44,195 nucleotides of DNA from a bacterium (GTDB lineage: Bacteria > Patescibacteriota > Minisyncoccia > Phycocordibacterales > UBA12445): positions 1 to 44,195 of the forward strand of contig JAUSIP010000008.1 of NCBI GenBank assembly GCA_030648005.1, written 5' to 3'. Position numbers and translations under genes: made by a program. Numbering within the stretch: the first letter of the stretch is position 1; every line of letters starts with the position of its first letter. Below the pieces are notes generated by a model, which did not search any database, was not told where the DNA came from, and worked only from the letters and a program-made list of their open reading frames with translations. Below are positions 1-43,789 of this stretch, piece after piece.

Positions 1-469
1 TGATGCATGGCTGTCGTCAGTTCGTGGTTTGAACTGTTCCCTTAAGTGGGGTAACGAACGCAACCCTCGTCGTGTGTTATATATGTCACACGAGACTGCC
101 ACGTTTATCGTGGAGGAAGCGAGGATGACGCCAAGTCAGCATGTCCCTCTGATGTCCTGGGCTACACGCATGATACAATGGCCGACACAACGAGTTGCAA
201 CATCGAAAGGTGAAGCTAATCTTAATAAAGTCGGCCCCAGTTCGGATTGAGGTCTGCAACCCGACCTCATGAAGCCGGAATCGCTAGTAATCGCAGGTCA
301 GACATACTGCGGTGAATACGTTCTCAAGTCTTGTACTCACTGCCCGTCAAGTCAGGGGAGCCGGGAGTACCTGAAGCTCACATTTATGTGATCCAAGGTA
401 AGCTTGGTGACAAGGATTAAGTCGTAACAAGGCACGGGTAGCGGAAGCTGCTCGTGGATTATTTTAAAG
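1..469 (+). rRNA. rrs: 16S ribosomal RNA, 3' part (5' end outside window)
   Basis: The fragment begins near E. coli position 1045 and carries recognisable universal blocks: GGCTGTCGTCAG, ACGCAACCC, GGAGGAAG, the GCCCGTCA core of the decoding helix (342-349) and AAGTCGTAACAAGG (419-432). Helix 45 is intact (GTAGC-GGAA-GCTGC, 438-451) and keeps the two adenines methylated by KsgA. Gap-free alignment past helix 45 puts GGATTA (456-461) on E. coli GGATCA, then TTTTA (462-466) on the anti-Shine-Dalgarno CCTCC. The anti-SD is therefore absent. No CCTCC occurs downstream before the terminator, so a displaced 3' exon is not visible. Two bases in the decoding region also differ: T at 337 (E. coli A1396) and T at 341 (C1400). 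The 3' end at about 469 is inferred by alignment. Confidence 0.95.
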
Positions 470-679
470 GTAAAACGTTTCTCATCCTTCGGGGTGAGAG
501 ACTTACAAGGTTGATGGTCGCGCGGTCCGCAAGGACTTTGCGTGATTGAACTATGACTCTAACAGTTCCCAAAGGAGTTACCTGGTCAAAGGTATAAATT
601 GATATTAACTTGATCTACTTAGCGCTACTCCGGTGTCAAACCCGGAGAAAGAGCGGAACAAAAGAAAGAATGATATAAA
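470..679 (+). other. 16S 3' trailer without tRNA or 23S
   Basis: No tRNA, ORF or 23S start is visible. The stretch holds short hairpins (for example GTCC-GCAA-GGAC near 520-531 and CTCCGG/CCCGGAG near 630-650) that could guide 3' maturation of 16S. It runs straight into an intrinsic terminator. Confidence 0.6.
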
Positions 680-717
680 AAAAGAAAAGCTCTGCCCTAG
701 GCAGAGCTTTTCTTTTT
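680..717 (+). terminator. Intrinsic terminator of the 16S transcript
   Basis: An 18-bp perfect stem (AAGCTCTGCC / GGCAGAGCTT plus flanking A/T pairs) with a 3-nt CTA loop is followed by a T-rich run. It ends the rRNA transcript before any 23S gene. The A-run on the other side means it could work in both directions. Confidence 0.9.
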
Positions 718-6042: not shown

Positions 6043-6057
6043 TATAATATAAGCATC
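6043..6057 (+). promoter_or_regulatory. -10 element close to the 6058 start
   Basis: TATAAT at 6043-6048 ends 9 nt before the ATG, leaving no room for an SD; a leaderless or nearly leaderless mRNA is predicted. Confidence 0.65.
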
Positions 6058-7221
6058 ATGAAATCCAAAATAATCATCGTTACATTAATATTTTTGGCTC
6101 TAGGGTTGCCTGGTGTGTTTACGGGTAAGAATAGTGGTAATGAAGATGGATTAGCTGCTTCAGCGACGGCCCCGCTTACAGCCGAGGATCTGATTGGACA
6201 GAGTGCTATGGAGGTCAAGAATCCGCAAGTAGGTAGATCGAACAATGCCGTCGTTGCGAGTCAGGCGAAAAAAATAAAATTGCCGGTCATATGCCAGGGG
6301 AGCGAGAGTCAGATTTTTAACTGTTACCAGAAGCACTATAAGAATTTAGTTAAGACAAAGGGCGTGCAGGCGGCCTTCGCTGATTTGCGACAAAGGTATA
6401 ACGAGAACAGTTATGTCGTCTCGCAATGTCACCCCATAACTCACGTGATAGGCGATACTGCTGTCGAGAAATACCCGACCGCTTCGGAGGCTTACTTGCA
6501 CGGCGACAGCTTTTGCTGGAGCGGGTATTACCACGGCGTGCTGGAGGGGATTCTCTCCAAGATCGGGATGGATAAGGCGATCTCGGAGATGAATAACATC
6601 TGCAAGGATATTCCTGGCAAGTCTGTATACTCTTTTGATTATTATAATTGCGTGCATGGTCTGGGCCATGGCCTGATGGCCATCACTGATACAGAACTGT
6701 TTAAGTCTTTGAATCTATGCGATGGCCTCTCAGGCAGTTGGGAGCAAACATCTTGTTATGGCGGGGTATTCATGGAGAACGTAATTGTAGATAATAAAAA
6801 CCACTTCACGAAATATCTGAAGCCCGCCGAGCCGTTATATCCGTGCAATACAGTAGATGAGAAGTATAAAAGTGCGTGCTATTTAATGCAGACTTCTTAT
6901 ATGCTTAAGGTGTCAGGACAGGATTTTGCTAAAGTCTTCGCTCTTTGCGAGAAGGCTGATAAAAACTATATTCCTACCTGCTATCAGAGTTTAGGCCGTG
7001 ATGCTTCGGGGCATAGTATAAGTAATGTTATAAGTACGAAAAACAGCTGTTACTTAGGCAAGGACTTTTATGCTAAGTCCAACTGTATAATCGGTGCGGT
7101 CAAGGACTTCATATCTTACTTCCATTCTGATGTCCAGGCGAAAACTTTGTGCAATAGTCTAACTGATGACTTAAGGGCTGTTTGTCTAAGCACAGCTACG
7201 GATTACTATAAAACTTTTTAA
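6058..7221 (+). CDS. Exported Cys/His-rich protein, function unknown
   Basis: 387 residues. Residues 1-22 form a signal peptide or N-terminal anchor (MKSK then IIIVTLIFLALGLPGV), followed by a low-complexity linker to about 70. The rest contains a repeated pattern of Cys next to His: CHPITH (124-129), C153 with H159, CVHGLGH (198-204), C233 with a Glu-Asn pair (240-241), and many further Cys (263, 274, 297, 308, 331, 343, 365, 376). No CxxCH heme motif occurs. A metal-binding or disulfide-stabilised extracytoplasmic protein is inferred. I do not recognise the family. It is monocistronic with a leaderless-type promoter. Confidence 0.85.
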   Translation: MKSKIIIVTLIFLALGLPGVFTGKNSGNEDGLAASATAPLTAEDLIGQSAMEVKNPQVGRSNNAVVASQAKKIKLPVICQGSESQIFNCYQKHYKNLVKTKGVQAAFADLRQRYNENSYVVSQCHPITHVIGDTAVEKYPTASEAYLHGDSFCWSGYYHGVLEGILSKIGMDKAISEMNNICKDIPGKSVYSFDYYNCVHGLGHGLMAITDTELFKSLNLCDGLSGSWEQTSCYGGVFMENVIVDNKNHFTKYLKPAEPLYPCNTVDEKYKSACYLMQTSYMLKVSGQDFAKVFALCEKADKNYIPTCYQSLGRDASGHSISNVISTKNSCYLGKDFYAKSNCIIGAVKDFISYFHSDVQAKTLCNSLTDDLRAVCLSTATDYYKTF

Positions 7222-24157: not shown

Positions 24158-24170
24158 TAAAATAGGTGCC
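24158..24170 (+). promoter_or_regulatory. Leaderless-type -10 of the 24171 operon
   Basis: TAAAAT (24158-24163) ends 7 nt before ATG 24171. Confidence 0.65.
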
Positions 24171-25202
24171 ATGCAGGATAATTATAAACCTTGGGCTGTC
24201 GATTACAAGGATTTCTATAATTTAACCGAGAAAGAAGATAGGCTGAAGTTTCTATTACGCTTTGCTTTACTTGCGCCTTCCAGCCACAATAGCCAGCCGT
24301 GGAGGTTTAAGATTAGTGACAATAAAATATTTGTCTATCCGGAAGAGAAAAGGGCCTTGCCTAAAAGCGATAAGAACGGCCGACAGCTTCACTTGAGCCT
24401 CGGCACGGCGCTTGAGAATCTCTTAGTGGCGGCAGACTTTTATGGTTACAAGACGGGAGTTAACTATTTCCCGTCGGAATCTCCCGATGCGGTCATGACC
24501 GTTGAATTTCAGGAAACAGAAAGTGTAAAGCACGGAGATGATGCGATTGTTAAGTCCATATTATCCAGACATGCGAATCGCAATAAATATTCAAACAAGA
24601 AACTGCCTGAAGAATTTTTGGTTCGGGTTAAGTCACTTTCTAGGGATGGCTTTAGAGTTTATGTAATTCAGGATAAAAAGTTAAAAGACAAGATTTCCGA
24701 TGTCGTCTCCGACGCTTTGATCGAAGCGATGGACGATCGTGACTTTCGTTCAGAGCTCTCAGGATATATTAAGTCGAATACCACCAAGGCTAAGACGGGC
24801 ATGCCGATGTTTGGATTCGGTATGCCGACAATTTTGTCGTATTTAGCGCCGGCTGTTCTTAAAAGATTTAATATGAACAAATTGAGCCGTAGCCAGGATG
24901 AGGCTTTGCTTAAAGATCATACTCCATATTTTGTGATTATCACTTCGGAGGCCGACAACAGAGAGAGTTGGATTAAGACCGGTCAGATATTCGAGTCTAT
25001 CGCGTTGATGGTTGGTCGAGAGGGTGCCAACACAGCACCGATGGCGGCTGCTATTCAGATTGGCGAGCATTATAAACGACTCCAGAAGATCTTGGGAACC
25101 GGTTTACGTCCGCAATTCTTCTTCAGGATGGGGTTTGCTGATTTGCCGGTTCACCATTCTCCAAGGCTCGGACTGGATGATGTACTGGAGAAGGAATATT
25201 AG
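24171..25202 (+). CDS. Nitroreductase-like flavoprotein (Acg type)
   Basis: 343 residues, longer than simple nitroreductases and consistent with the Acg-type double-half form. The N-terminal LAPSSHNSQPWRF motif (about 42-54) is the FMN-binding signature; LHLSLGTALENLLVAA and the C-terminal FESIALMVGREGANTAPM block fit the fold. It probably binds FMN and either reduces or stores flavin; the reaction is unknown. It opens a three-gene operon, with the next ATG two bases after its stop codon. Confidence 0.85.
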   Translation: MQDNYKPWAVDYKDFYNLTEKEDRLKFLLRFALLAPSSHNSQPWRFKISDNKIFVYPEEKRALPKSDKNGRQLHLSLGTALENLLVAADFYGYKTGVNYFPSESPDAVMTVEFQETESVKHGDDAIVKSILSRHANRNKYSNKKLPEEFLVRVKSLSRDGFRVYVIQDKKLKDKISDVVSDALIEAMDDRDFRSELSGYIKSNTTKAKTGMPMFGFGMPTILSYLAPAVLKRFNMNKLSRSQDEALLKDHTPYFVIITSEADNRESWIKTGQIFESIALMVGREGANTAPMAAAIQIGEHYKRLQKILGTGLRPQFFFRMGFADLPVHHSPRLGLDDVLEKEY

Positions 25203-33428: not shown

Positions 33429-33441
33429 TATAATTGAGATC
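33429..33441 (+). promoter_or_regulatory. Leaderless-type -10 of lemA
   Basis: TATAAT (33429-33434) ends 7 nt before ATG 33442. Confidence 0.7.
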
Positions 33442-33999
33442 ATGAAAAAATATATCATATGGGGGTTAGTTGTTGTGGCTGTGCTCGCTGCCTTCTATCT
33501 TTTTGGAGCTTATAATAATCTTATTAGTAACAGCGAGGCTGTAGACAATAAGTGGGCCCAAGTTGAGACGCAGTATCAGAGAAGATTCGATTTAATCCCA
33601 AACGTTGTTAAAACAGTTAAGGGTTTTGCAAGCCAAGAACAGACAATCTTCGCTGATATTGCCGACGCGCGCACTAGATATTCCGGCGCATCCAACACAG
33701 AAGATAAGGTGAAGGCCGCTAATCAGGTTGAATCCGCACTCGGTAGACTTCTGGTTATTGCAGAGAACTATCCTGATCTTAAGTCGTCTCAGCTTTTTAC
33801 TGATCTTAATGTAGAGCTTGAGGGCGCGGAGAATAGAATAAGCGTCGAGAGGAGTAGGTTTAACGATGCTGTTACAAAATATAATCTTGCAACCAAGCGC
33901 TTCCCGTCTTCTCTGGTCGCTTCGTATTTCGGATTTGAAGAGAAGGATTACTTTCAATCGGTTGACGGATCCGAAAATGCTGTCCCTGTTAATTTCTAA
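33442..33999 (+). CDS. lemA: LemA family protein
   Basis: 185 residues. One N-terminal membrane helix (about 4-24), then the LemA helical bundle: YNNLISNSEAVDNKWAQVETQYQRRFDLIPNVV (about 28-60) is the family hallmark, and LNVELEGAENRISVERSRFNDAVTKYN follows near 118-144. LemA proteins are short membrane-anchored proteins of unclear role, often beside TPM-domain genes, as here (the TPM gene starts 8 nt after the stop). Confidence 0.95.
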   Translation: MKKYIIWGLVVVAVLAAFYLFGAYNNLISNSEAVDNKWAQVETQYQRRFDLIPNVVKTVKGFASQEQTIFADIADARTRYSGASNTEDKVKAANQVESALGRLLVIAENYPDLKSSQLFTDLNVELEGAENRISVERSRFNDAVTKYNLATKRFPSSLVASYFGFEEKDYFQSVDGSENAVPVNF

Positions 34000-41687: not shown

Positions 41688-42524
41688 TTAAATTTTATTT
41701 CCTTTTTTGAAATCTTCCCACGCCATCTCCTTCTTGCCTTCTGGAATAATGCGCTCGGGCATGTAGGAATCGCCTTCGATGTGGCCTGATAAAATCTTGA
41801 CTCGCTTGCCCCCGAGCATCATATAGGCTCCCGGGTCGGGGTTGAGTGCGCGGACGACGCGGTCTGACTTTATAGGATCAGAAAGATCTATAAGCCCCTC
41901 GGTGGTCGTGATCTTCTTGCAAAATGTCGCTTTGGAGTGGTCTTGAGGAGTAGCCCTAACTTTACCCACTATCCAGTCTGGAATTATCTTGATTAGCATC
42001 TGTCCGGCAACTTTGGCCAGAGCCTCTTTGAGTTCCGGCAGATAGAGCTGATTCAATAAGGCGAACTTCTCCTGTGCAATGATCGGCCCGTGATCCATCT
42101 CTTTATCGAGAAGCATTATTGAAACGCCGGTCTCTGTGTCGCCATTTAATATAGCAGACTGTAACGGCGAAGGCCCACGGTATTTTGGTAACAACGACGG
42201 ATGCACGTTTAGTGTGCCATGTTTTGGTAGGTTAAGTATCTCTTCCGGAATTATTTTACCGTAAGCGGCGACGATAGATAGGTCAAAGGTTTTTAAGCTT
42301 ACAAAGTCAGAGACTGAAAGCTTTTCTGGTTGTATGACGGGGATGTTATTTTTAATAGCCCAGATCTTGACTGGTGGGGGAGTGATAATTAATTTCCTGC
42401 CTTTTGGTTCGTCGGGGTTGGTAACTATTAGATCTGGTTTTATCCCACTCTTATCTAGTTCGTCTAGTATGGAAACAGCGAACCCCGGGGTGCCGAAGAA
42501 GGCAATTTTTAGGTCATTTAACAT
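41688..42524 (-). CDS. fmt: Methionyl-tRNA formyltransferase
   Basis: 278 residues, slightly short at the C-terminus compared with E. coli Fmt. It formylates Met-tRNA(fMet) with 10-formyl-THF. Visible: FFGTPGFAVSIL (about 9-20), GKIIPEEIL, the catalytic NVHPSLLPKYRGPSP (Asn, His), TGVSIMLLDKEMDHGPI (catalytic Asp). The gene overlaps def by 11 nt, so the pair is co-translated. Formylated initiator tRNA is especially important for leaderless mRNA translation by 70S ribosomes in other bacteria. Confidence 0.95.
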   Translation of the reverse strand: MLNDLKIAFFGTPGFAVSILDELDKSGIKPDLIVTNPDEPKGRKLIITPPPVKIWAIKNNIPVIQPEKLSVSDFVSLKTFDLSIVAAYGKIIPEEILNLPKHGTLNVHPSLLPKYRGPSPLQSAILNGDTETGVSIMLLDKEMDHGPIIAQEKFALLNQLYLPELKEALAKVAGQMLIKIIPDWIVGKVRATPQDHSKATFCKKITTTEGLIDLSDPIKSDRVVRALNPDPGAYMMLGGKRVKILSGHIEGDSYMPERIIPEGKKEMAWEDFKKGNKI

Positions 42525-43053
42525 GTTCAGTTTTCTTCTCCATCATTTTTATCAGGTCTTCCGCCGAATCAATGAATAATATGCCGTTGAGATGGTCTGT
42601 CTCATGCTGGAAGATCTCTGCCAGTAGACCGGAAGCTCCGCGGATGAACTTCTGTCCATTCTCGTCGTATGCTTCGATCGTGACCTTCTGATGTCTTTTG
42701 ATCTTACCAAAGATGTGTCGGACAGAGAGACATCCTTCATCTAGGGTGACCTTTCGAACTGACCTCTTAGTGATCACCGGATTTATGTAAATTAATTTAT
42801 CGGCTTCTTTTTTTAGGCCATCTTTTACCTCTTCGTTTCTGGATATTTGGAATGCTCTTGGTGACACCACAAATACCCTGATCGATTCACCGATCTGAGG
42901 TGCAGCTAAGGCGACACCATCTTCGCAAGATTCTAGTGTTCCTGTCATTTCGGCCAGGATTTTATCGATCTTCTTGGAGCCAATATCTTCTAAAGAGACC
43001 TCTTTGGCCGTCTTTCTAAGTACTGGATCTTCTTTTTGTAATATTTCCGCCAT
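42514..43053 (-). CDS. def: Peptide deformylase
   Basis: 179 residues from ATG 43053. It removes formyl from new proteins. Motifs: GVALAAPQIGE (motif I), EGCLSV with the metal Cys (motif II), and the QHETDH HExxH metal site (motif III, about 154-159). The start is fixed by TATAAT 7 nt upstream and by the family N-terminus MAEILQKEDPVLR. An upstream extension to 43122 would translate through two palindromes and is rejected. Confidence 0.96.
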   Translation of the reverse strand: MAEILQKEDPVLRKTAKEVSLEDIGSKKIDKILAEMTGTLESCEDGVALAAPQIGESIRVFVVSPRAFQISRNEEVKDGLKKEADKLIYINPVITKRSVRKVTLDEGCLSVRHIFGKIKRHQKVTIEAYDENGQKFIRGASGLLAEIFQHETDHLNGILFIDSAEDLIKMMEKKTEHVK

Positions 43054-43066
43054 TAAGGGTATTATA
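43054..43066 (-). promoter_or_regulatory. Leaderless-type -10 of def-fmt
   Basis: On the minus strand TATAAT (43066-43061) ends 7 nt before ATG 43053. Confidence 0.75.
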
Positions 43067-43070
43067 ATCC

Positions 43071-43119
43071 CGATTTTGTTTAAACCAAAATCGAGGATCC
43101 TCGATCGGAACGATCGGGA
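43071..43119. repeat. Two adjacent palindromes upstream of def (copy 2)
   Basis: CGATTTTG / CAAAATCG (about 43071-43093) is followed by the element ATCGAGGATCCTCGA, stem CGATCG-GAA-CGATCG and GGGA (43090-43119), the counterpart of 18217-18251. It lies at the -35 to upstream region of the def promoter. Confidence 0.85.
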
Positions 43120-43267: not shown

Positions 43268-43789
43268 ATGACAGAGGAAAAGTTGGGGCAGGTAGTCATT
43301 AGGGCTCGGAAGTTTCTTATCGCTCGAAGGGCTGTCTTTCTGGCGACTGTGAACGACATCAGGATTCCAATGGCTAGCCATGCACCTTTCGTTCGTGATG
43401 ATGAGGGAGATCTGTTTGTTTATACTAGCGCCCTGTCTCAGCATACGAAGAATATGAATGACACGCATAGAGCCTCGGCGATCGCCGCTGACGACGAGTC
43501 GTCTTCGGAGGACAATCTTTTCGCTCGGGTCCGTATCACTTTCTCGTGCACGGCTGAGGTCGTTGAAAGGAGTAATCCTGAATGGCTGAGGAAGATGAGG
43601 CTTTTCAGTGCTGCATTCGGCGAGCCCTTCGAAGAGATCAGACAGCTTGGGGACTTTACCCTTTTCCGTCTCCGGCCGATTGAGGTTGTCTATGTTGAAG
43701 GTTTTGGTCAGGCTTATCGCCTAGATAAGAAACTGACTAAGTCGATACATGTGCGCGGTACTCAACCAGGCGCCGAAGCTCATCGATAG
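43268..43789 (+). CDS. Pyridoxamine-phosphate-oxidase-like (HugZ-type) protein
   Basis: 173 residues, split-barrel flavin/heme fold. AVFLATVNDIRIPMASHAPFVRDDEGDLFVYTSALSQHTKNM matches the PNPOx-like N-terminal strand set, ARVRITFSCTAEVVER follows, and the C-terminal DFTLFRLRPIEVVYVEGFGQAYRL resembles the GFG-A-L end of HugZ/HutZ heme-utilisation proteins. FMN or heme binding is inferred. It belongs to the SD-led class, with its own promoter, leader, SD and terminator. Confidence 0.82.
   Translation: MTEEKLGQVVIRARKFLIARRAVFLATVNDIRIPMASHAPFVRDDEGDLFVYTSALSQHTKNMNDTHRASAIAADDESSSEDNLFARVRITFSCTAEVVERSNPEWLRKMRLFSAAFGEPFEEIRQLGDFTLFRLRPIEVVYVEGFGQAYRLDKKLTKSIHVRGTQPGAEAHR

Follow-up and report, generated by a model that had tools for sequence, protein, structure and literature searches.

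Loss of the anti-Shine-Dalgarno sequence from the 16S rRNA tail throughout the sampled members of a CPR order

Few stretches of bacterial DNA are as conserved as the anti-Shine-Dalgarno (anti-SD) sequence, through which 16S rRNA normally pairs with mRNAs at the start of protein synthesis; its CCUCC is kept in Deinococcus and the Actinobacteria, which are rich in leaderless mRNAs. Losses are known in few lineages, most of them genome-reduced, as the preliminary description of this locus stated; the published cases include two CPR genomes near the present group (PMC10783764, PMC6107228). Lim, Furuta and Kobayashi (2012; PMC3522020) described 15 non-anti-SD genomes, belonging to insect symbionts, hemotropic mycoplasmas and Flavobacteria, in which CCUCC is absent from every 16S copy and genes are not preceded by SD-like sequences. 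Amin et al. (2018; PMC6107228) found 128 taxa without a consensus anti-SD, concentrated in Bacteroidetes, Mycoplasma and Carsonella, which have an intact helix 45, no CCUCCU in the tail and no recognisable SD; CPR bacteria are not named in the available part of that paper. A survey published in 2024 defines a category iv, 'SD-scarce organisms lacking CCUCC', that includes one Campbellbacteria and one Wolfebacteria genome (PMC10783764). In the ribosomes of Bacteroidia, the anti-SD is sequestered by bS21, bS18 and bS6 (PMC9976891).

The 16S rRNA described here shares the missing CCUCC, and its genome in large part the scarcity of upstream SD-like sequences, with the genomes of Lim et al., but the loss extends through an order and into several families of Paceibacteria, with intermediates, whereas theirs are few tips, mostly eukaryote-hosted. 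Helix 45 is intact and the SD largely unrecognisable, much as in the taxa of Amin et al. As in the Bacteroidia, SD pairing is apparently unused; however, the anti-SD that is present but hidden there is gone here. The -10 box directly 5' of the start codon is a likeness to Deinococcus and the Actinobacteria, yet the CCUCC kept in those groups is lost in this one. The state is also that of category iv in the 2024 survey, where it appears as single table entries; the surveyed Campbellbacteria and Wolfebacteria are presumably CPR bacteria close to the class of the present genome. In the available part of that survey we found no mention of fixation across an order, of graded erosion, of leaderless promoters or of pairing in the precursor. 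No paper was found, within an incomplete coverage of journals, on order-wide anti-SD loss or leaderless mRNAs in these bacteria, and a loss fixed throughout an order, with intermediates among sister families and with a tail that can often still pair with its own precursor, appears to be undescribed in the literature searched. The kind of loss is known; its scale, intermediates and setting look new. Known losses are scattered tips, mostly decaying symbionts, whereas the present loss affects an entire order, made up of tiny groundwater-type bacteria, within a major CPR class, and comparison can now address what holds the anti-SD once SD pairing is unused.

The window, by which is meant the whole stretch of 44,195 bases analysed, is contig C4, one of 20 contigs in a 757-kb genome bin that is 97% complete and unclosed. 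It opens with the 3' part of the sole 16S rRNA gene (Table 1). The absence of the anti-SD from this gene, which the preliminary description had noticed from the letters alone, is confirmed, and the interpretation given there is supported: helix 45 was recovered intact, and both the coordinates and the letters reported for the replacement of CCUCC were correct. Following helix 45, the gene reads GAUUAUUUUAAAGG instead of GAUCACCUCCUU, where the Rfam model has GAUCACCUCCUUU; the letters of the tail are GATTATTTTAAAG, and in the covariance-model alignment the ACCUCCU positions of the model correspond to ATTTTAA. The tail had also been said to align base for base with that of E. coli, which holds with respect to register, but not identity, as GAU.A alone is common to both.

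Table 1. Features of the window relevant to the 16S rRNA 3' end and to leaderless-type promoters.
Feature	Position	Strand	Basis or remark
3' part of the sole 16S rRNA gene	1..469	+	Rfam SSU_rRNA_bacteria RF00177, 391 bits, model 1039-1533 (model end)
Helix 45, intact: CACGGGTAGC-GGAA-GCTGCTCGTG, GGAA loop	433..456	+	Covariance-model alignment and fold
16S 3' tail, anti-SD missing; GAUUAUUUUAAAG where GAUCACCUCCUUA expected; 462-466 = UUUUA	457..469	+	Sequence and covariance model
Weak candidate hairpin UUUUA-AAGG-UAAAA	462..475	+	Same place as the anti-SD/trailer hairpin CUCC-UUUCUA-GGGAG of relatives keeping the anti-SD
Trailer hairpin GUUUCUCAUCC-UUCG-GGGUGAGAGAC	477..502	+	Fold, z -6.3 for 424-510
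Perfect trailer hairpin CUCCGG/CCGGAG, base-pairing the one CUCC of the trailer (CTCC 628-631)	628..647	+	Sequence, motif scan
16S closing (processing) stem, trailer strand AGCGGAACAAAAGAAA	652..667	+	Complementary to the C18 leader, 70-85 nt ahead of AGAGTTTGATC
Likely terminator of the 16S transcript: palindrome and T-run	679..717	+	Self-complementary match, sequence
-10 box TATAAT, 15 nt before ATG at 6058	6043..6048	+	Example of leaderless-type promoter
-10 box TAAAAT, 13 nt before ATG at 24171	24158..24163	+	Example
-10 box TATAAT, 13 nt before ATG at 33442	33429..33434	+	Example
-10 box TATAAT, 13 nt before peptide deformylase gene 42514-43053	43061..43066	-	Example

Comparison with the 16S 3' ends of close relatives, which had been proposed as a check, found CCUCC to be absent in 27/27 members of the same order with tails that were read; as these come from independent assemblies and many families, the absence reflects neither chance nor assembly error. 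The tails of the order mostly contain AUWWUUCAA(n)UUGAA, the usual form being GGA-WUA-W-UUCAA-n-UUGAA, and UUCAA/UUCCA is highly conserved. The wider class is placed as Paceibacteria by the names of relatives. A pattern for tails without the anti-SD matched at least 120 contigs, including Nomura-, Kaiser-, Zambryski-, Taylor-, Adler-, Yonath- and Harrisonbacteria. In a sample of 286 genomes from the class, 165 contained the strict helix-45 pattern, which was followed by CCTCC in 54. Within the order, helix 45 was matched in 18 of the 22 sampled genomes and CCTCC was found in none, except at a second 16S in G169; elsewhere in the class it was kept in 53/147. This second 3' end (G169:C6:263-315, L211) has a foreign-looking helix 45, the other 16S of the same genome is without CCTCC, and the extra copy is probably contamination. 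In the phylum sample outside the class, CCTCC was present in all but G347 (ACUUCC) and G530 (AUCUCC) among the matches listed.

Beyond the order, the class shows a patchy loss that comes in grades, passing through CCUCC, UCUCC, UUUCC and UUUCU, with stepwise tails in sister families exemplified by UCACCUCCUUUCUAGGGAG, UCAUCUCCUUUCUAGGGAG, ACAUUUCCUACUAGGGAA, ACAUUUCUUUACUAGAAA and ACAAUUCUUUUAGGAAUU. When the lost or kept state was placed on a 149-sequence 16S tree, 11 changes were counted, compared to around 30 under shuffled labels, the number of losses being inexact because the tree represents a single gene with rough rooting. As judged from these sequences, the loss is clearly clade-bound and has probably occurred more than once. 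It is no quirk of one genome, being fixed across the order as sampled and recurring in sister families.

The preliminary description had further linked the loss to genes lacking SD motifs. Gene starts were taken from a simple in-house caller blind to such motifs, covering around 307 kb of the window genome and, for each relative, 200 kb; in a small E. coli control of 36 genes, the same caller recovered operon-internal SDs in 6/8 cases. SD motifs are near background in the window genome and depleted for operon-internal genes, at which the energy of pairing to CCUCC is weaker than in control windows. The claim is therefore largely upheld, but SD-like motifs do precede 9/143 operon-first genes, relative to 1-2 in control windows, and the SD-less state extends beyond the genomes that have no anti-SD. 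These SD-like first genes, carrying AGGAG or GGAGG at the usual distance (window 43268-43786, and others on L212, L214, L215, L216, L223 and L225), may be old relics or imports.

A -10 box (TATAAT, with one mismatch allowed) is found 11-15 nt before the start codon of 37/143 operon-first genes, against 5.2 expected, and 19 of these 37 also have a -35-like hexamer (at least four matches), compared to five in shifted controls; the commonest spacing between the two is 17, in 11 cases. Transcripts with such a -10 box are predicted to start at the AUG or within approximately 3 nt of it and, given the position of these boxes relative to the start codons of first genes, leaderless mRNAs are likely to be common in the window genome. 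The same combination of few SD motifs and -10 boxes characterises G006, a member of the order that has lost the anti-SD, and G163 and G240, members of the class that keep CCUCC. As the leaderless signal is present in these keepers, and is weak in G175, it does not alone explain which genomes have lost the anti-SD. However, since SD use is near background in sister clades still possessing CCUCC, it seems to have faded before the anti-SD was lost, and the sequence of events suggested by these data is one in which SD use faded first, leaderless promoters were already common and erosion of the tail came later.

One of these promoters belongs to a dispersed element, GAGGATCCYCGATTTTG(n)CAAAATCGGGACTATAAT, which lies on the reverse strand at around 43060-43115 of the window, upstream of the peptide deformylase gene, and recurs at L216 (~15841), L223 (~10224), L224 (~9390), L225 (~8117) and L226 (~7433). 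It contains an inverted repeat between the -35 and -10 sequences, with the start codon 6-9 nt past the box in the copies read. The genes behind it include those for peptide deformylase, SecA and SmpB, and it may be the operator of a single regulon.

We consider these observations to be best explained jointly, with a probability of about 0.78, by an order-wide loss of the anti-SD in bacteria that do not use SD pairing and have leaderless mRNAs, the 16S tail drifting whilst its pairing within the precursor is partly kept. The mRNAs of boxed first genes would begin 0-3 nt from the AUG and be read as leaderless, whereas operon-internal genes would start through coupling and an A-rich, SD-depleted upstream region, perhaps with the aid of a protein with several S1 domains; a 399-residue frame with such domains is present. 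Era reads GAUCA and CCUCC (PMC10582724) and is reported to be missing from most Paceibacteria (PMC12641178), and a profile search of the window genome gave matches to it below the cut-off only. With SD pairing unused and Era, the reader of both motifs, not found, the sequence of the tail would be free to drift. The ribosomal protein bS21 was considered as a partner lost together with the anti-SD, and dropped as high and low scorers are found among genomes with and without the anti-SD alike. PF01165 scores above the Pfam cut-off in 1/22 genomes of the order, against 90/264 other members of the class, and its search gave no match in the window genome.

The part of this explanation concerning the precursor depends on the trailer. 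In genomes keeping the anti-SD, the bases that follow it, UUUCUARGGA, hardly vary across the phylum and complement it, such that CUCC can pair with GGAG. In the order the corresponding arms of tail and trailer often still match, as UUCA/UGAA, UCC/GGA or GUC/GAC, and those of the window are UUUUA/UAAAA; hence pairing with the trailer of the same precursor seems to be partly kept. Stems between tail and trailer were found in the order at a frequency of 0.77, relative to 0.28 in shuffled tails, and each tail class has an excess of the hairpin relative to shuffles. Across all tails, a genome's own two arms pair better than arms exchanged between genomes (z 9.7, a value inflated by shared descent). 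Tree-independent contrasts for covariation of the arms gave p values between 0.05 and 0.7 according to the settings, with no signal over all contrasts and a weak one where the core of the arm differs, and the claim of covariation was downgraded as a consequence. RNAalifold and pair counts on a MAFFT alignment were not used, as ungapped tails put the 3' arm out of register. By fold prediction, the 462-475 stem is not part of the minimum-energy fold in the window, and the hairpin energies are weak. A kept pairing of tail and trailer is nevertheless plausible on the pattern of matching arms.

It is possible, though in our view doubtful, that neutral drift suffices, SD pairing having been dropped earlier and the tail left unconstrained, such that the hairpin is chance or plain conservation. 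The weak hairpin energies, the weakness of covariation after correction for the tree and the SD use that was already low in sister clades keeping the anti-SD would all fit such a history; by contrast, a hairpin above shuffles in every tail class, and the strong conservation of UUCAA/UUCCA in the order, would be unexpected under drift. A converse and similarly tentative suggestion is that the tail has changed jobs, no longer reading mRNA and being kept only as an arm of the precursor hairpin, which is perhaps retained or serves in 30S maturation, with initiation being leaderless. If true, the class would record the stepwise dismantling of mRNA reading, with precursor pairing mended by paired changes.

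A rival to the joint explanation is that the tail contains a new anti-SD, either UUUCAA or AUUAUUUU, pairing with a new type of SD such as TATAAT or TTGAAA upstream of genes. The enrichment upstream of starts of ATAAT, the complement of the AUUAU in the window tail, could be read in this manner. However, the same box is enriched in G163 and G240, despite their CCUCC, and in G006, the tail of which has no AUUAU; it is accompanied by a -35 sequence at promoter spacing; and predicted pairing of the window tail with positions -20 to -4 of mRNAs is not above controls. We therefore regard a replacement anti-SD as quite unlikely.

The single 16S gene of the bin is split over two contigs, with the 5' part (model 9-902) at the end of C18, the 3' part on C4 and the middle (model ~903-1038) missing from the assembly; no second, canonical copy was found in the 97% complete, unclosed bin. 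A 16-bp perfect complement links the leader on C18 to the trailer on C4, where shuffled trailers averaged 7.9 and reached 14 at most. In most members of the order checked, the motif GAACGGAACAAAA of the trailer is conserved along with its pairing to the leader. This complementarity argues that the halves are joined into a working gene, and it bounds the stretch in which an anti-SD could be situated. A motif scan of 459-720, which covers the region from helix 45 to the trailer strand of the closing stem, detected no CCTCC, and no hidden exon carrying CCUCC was found before the transcript end; hence the assertion that no CCUCC precedes the terminator, and no intron is visible, was accurate, the only CTCC being paired in a hairpin.

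An rRNA intron, or a 3' piece joined in trans, might in principle still provide the mature 16S rRNA with CCUCC, as insertions inside 16S are common in relatives and the 23S of the window genome takes up 3,647 nt to cover 2,925 model positions. Yet the stretch from helix 45 to the closing stem is free of CCTCC, downstream CCTCC is rare in relatives and at varying distances, and the trailer is short, with a conserved leader-paired stem at its end and no conserved second exon, making a concealed anti-SD highly improbable. That an assembly error, chimera or pseudogene obscures a true 16S with CCUCC, as the break at a contig end might imply, is scarcely credible given the intact helix 45 and the leader and trailer complementing one another across contigs, and is refuted for the order by the loss in independent assemblies.

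The 23S gene is located at G000:C8:5401-9047 (L361), on a different contig and not downstream of the 16S, which has its own terminator; its excess of around 720 nt suggests an insertion. In many relatives within the order (L006, L027, L030 and others), inserts several hundred bases long split the 16S matches at sites that recur, such as the equivalents of window 425/426 and 376/377. Gene callers that score SD motifs will misjudge starts in these genomes, and 16S annotations ending at CCUCC will misplace the ends of their rRNAs. The 1391-1407 primer region, at 331-352 of the window, reads TTGTACTCACTGCCCGTCA rather than the usual TGTACACACCGCCCGTCA, hence a mismatch to common 16S primers is to be expected.
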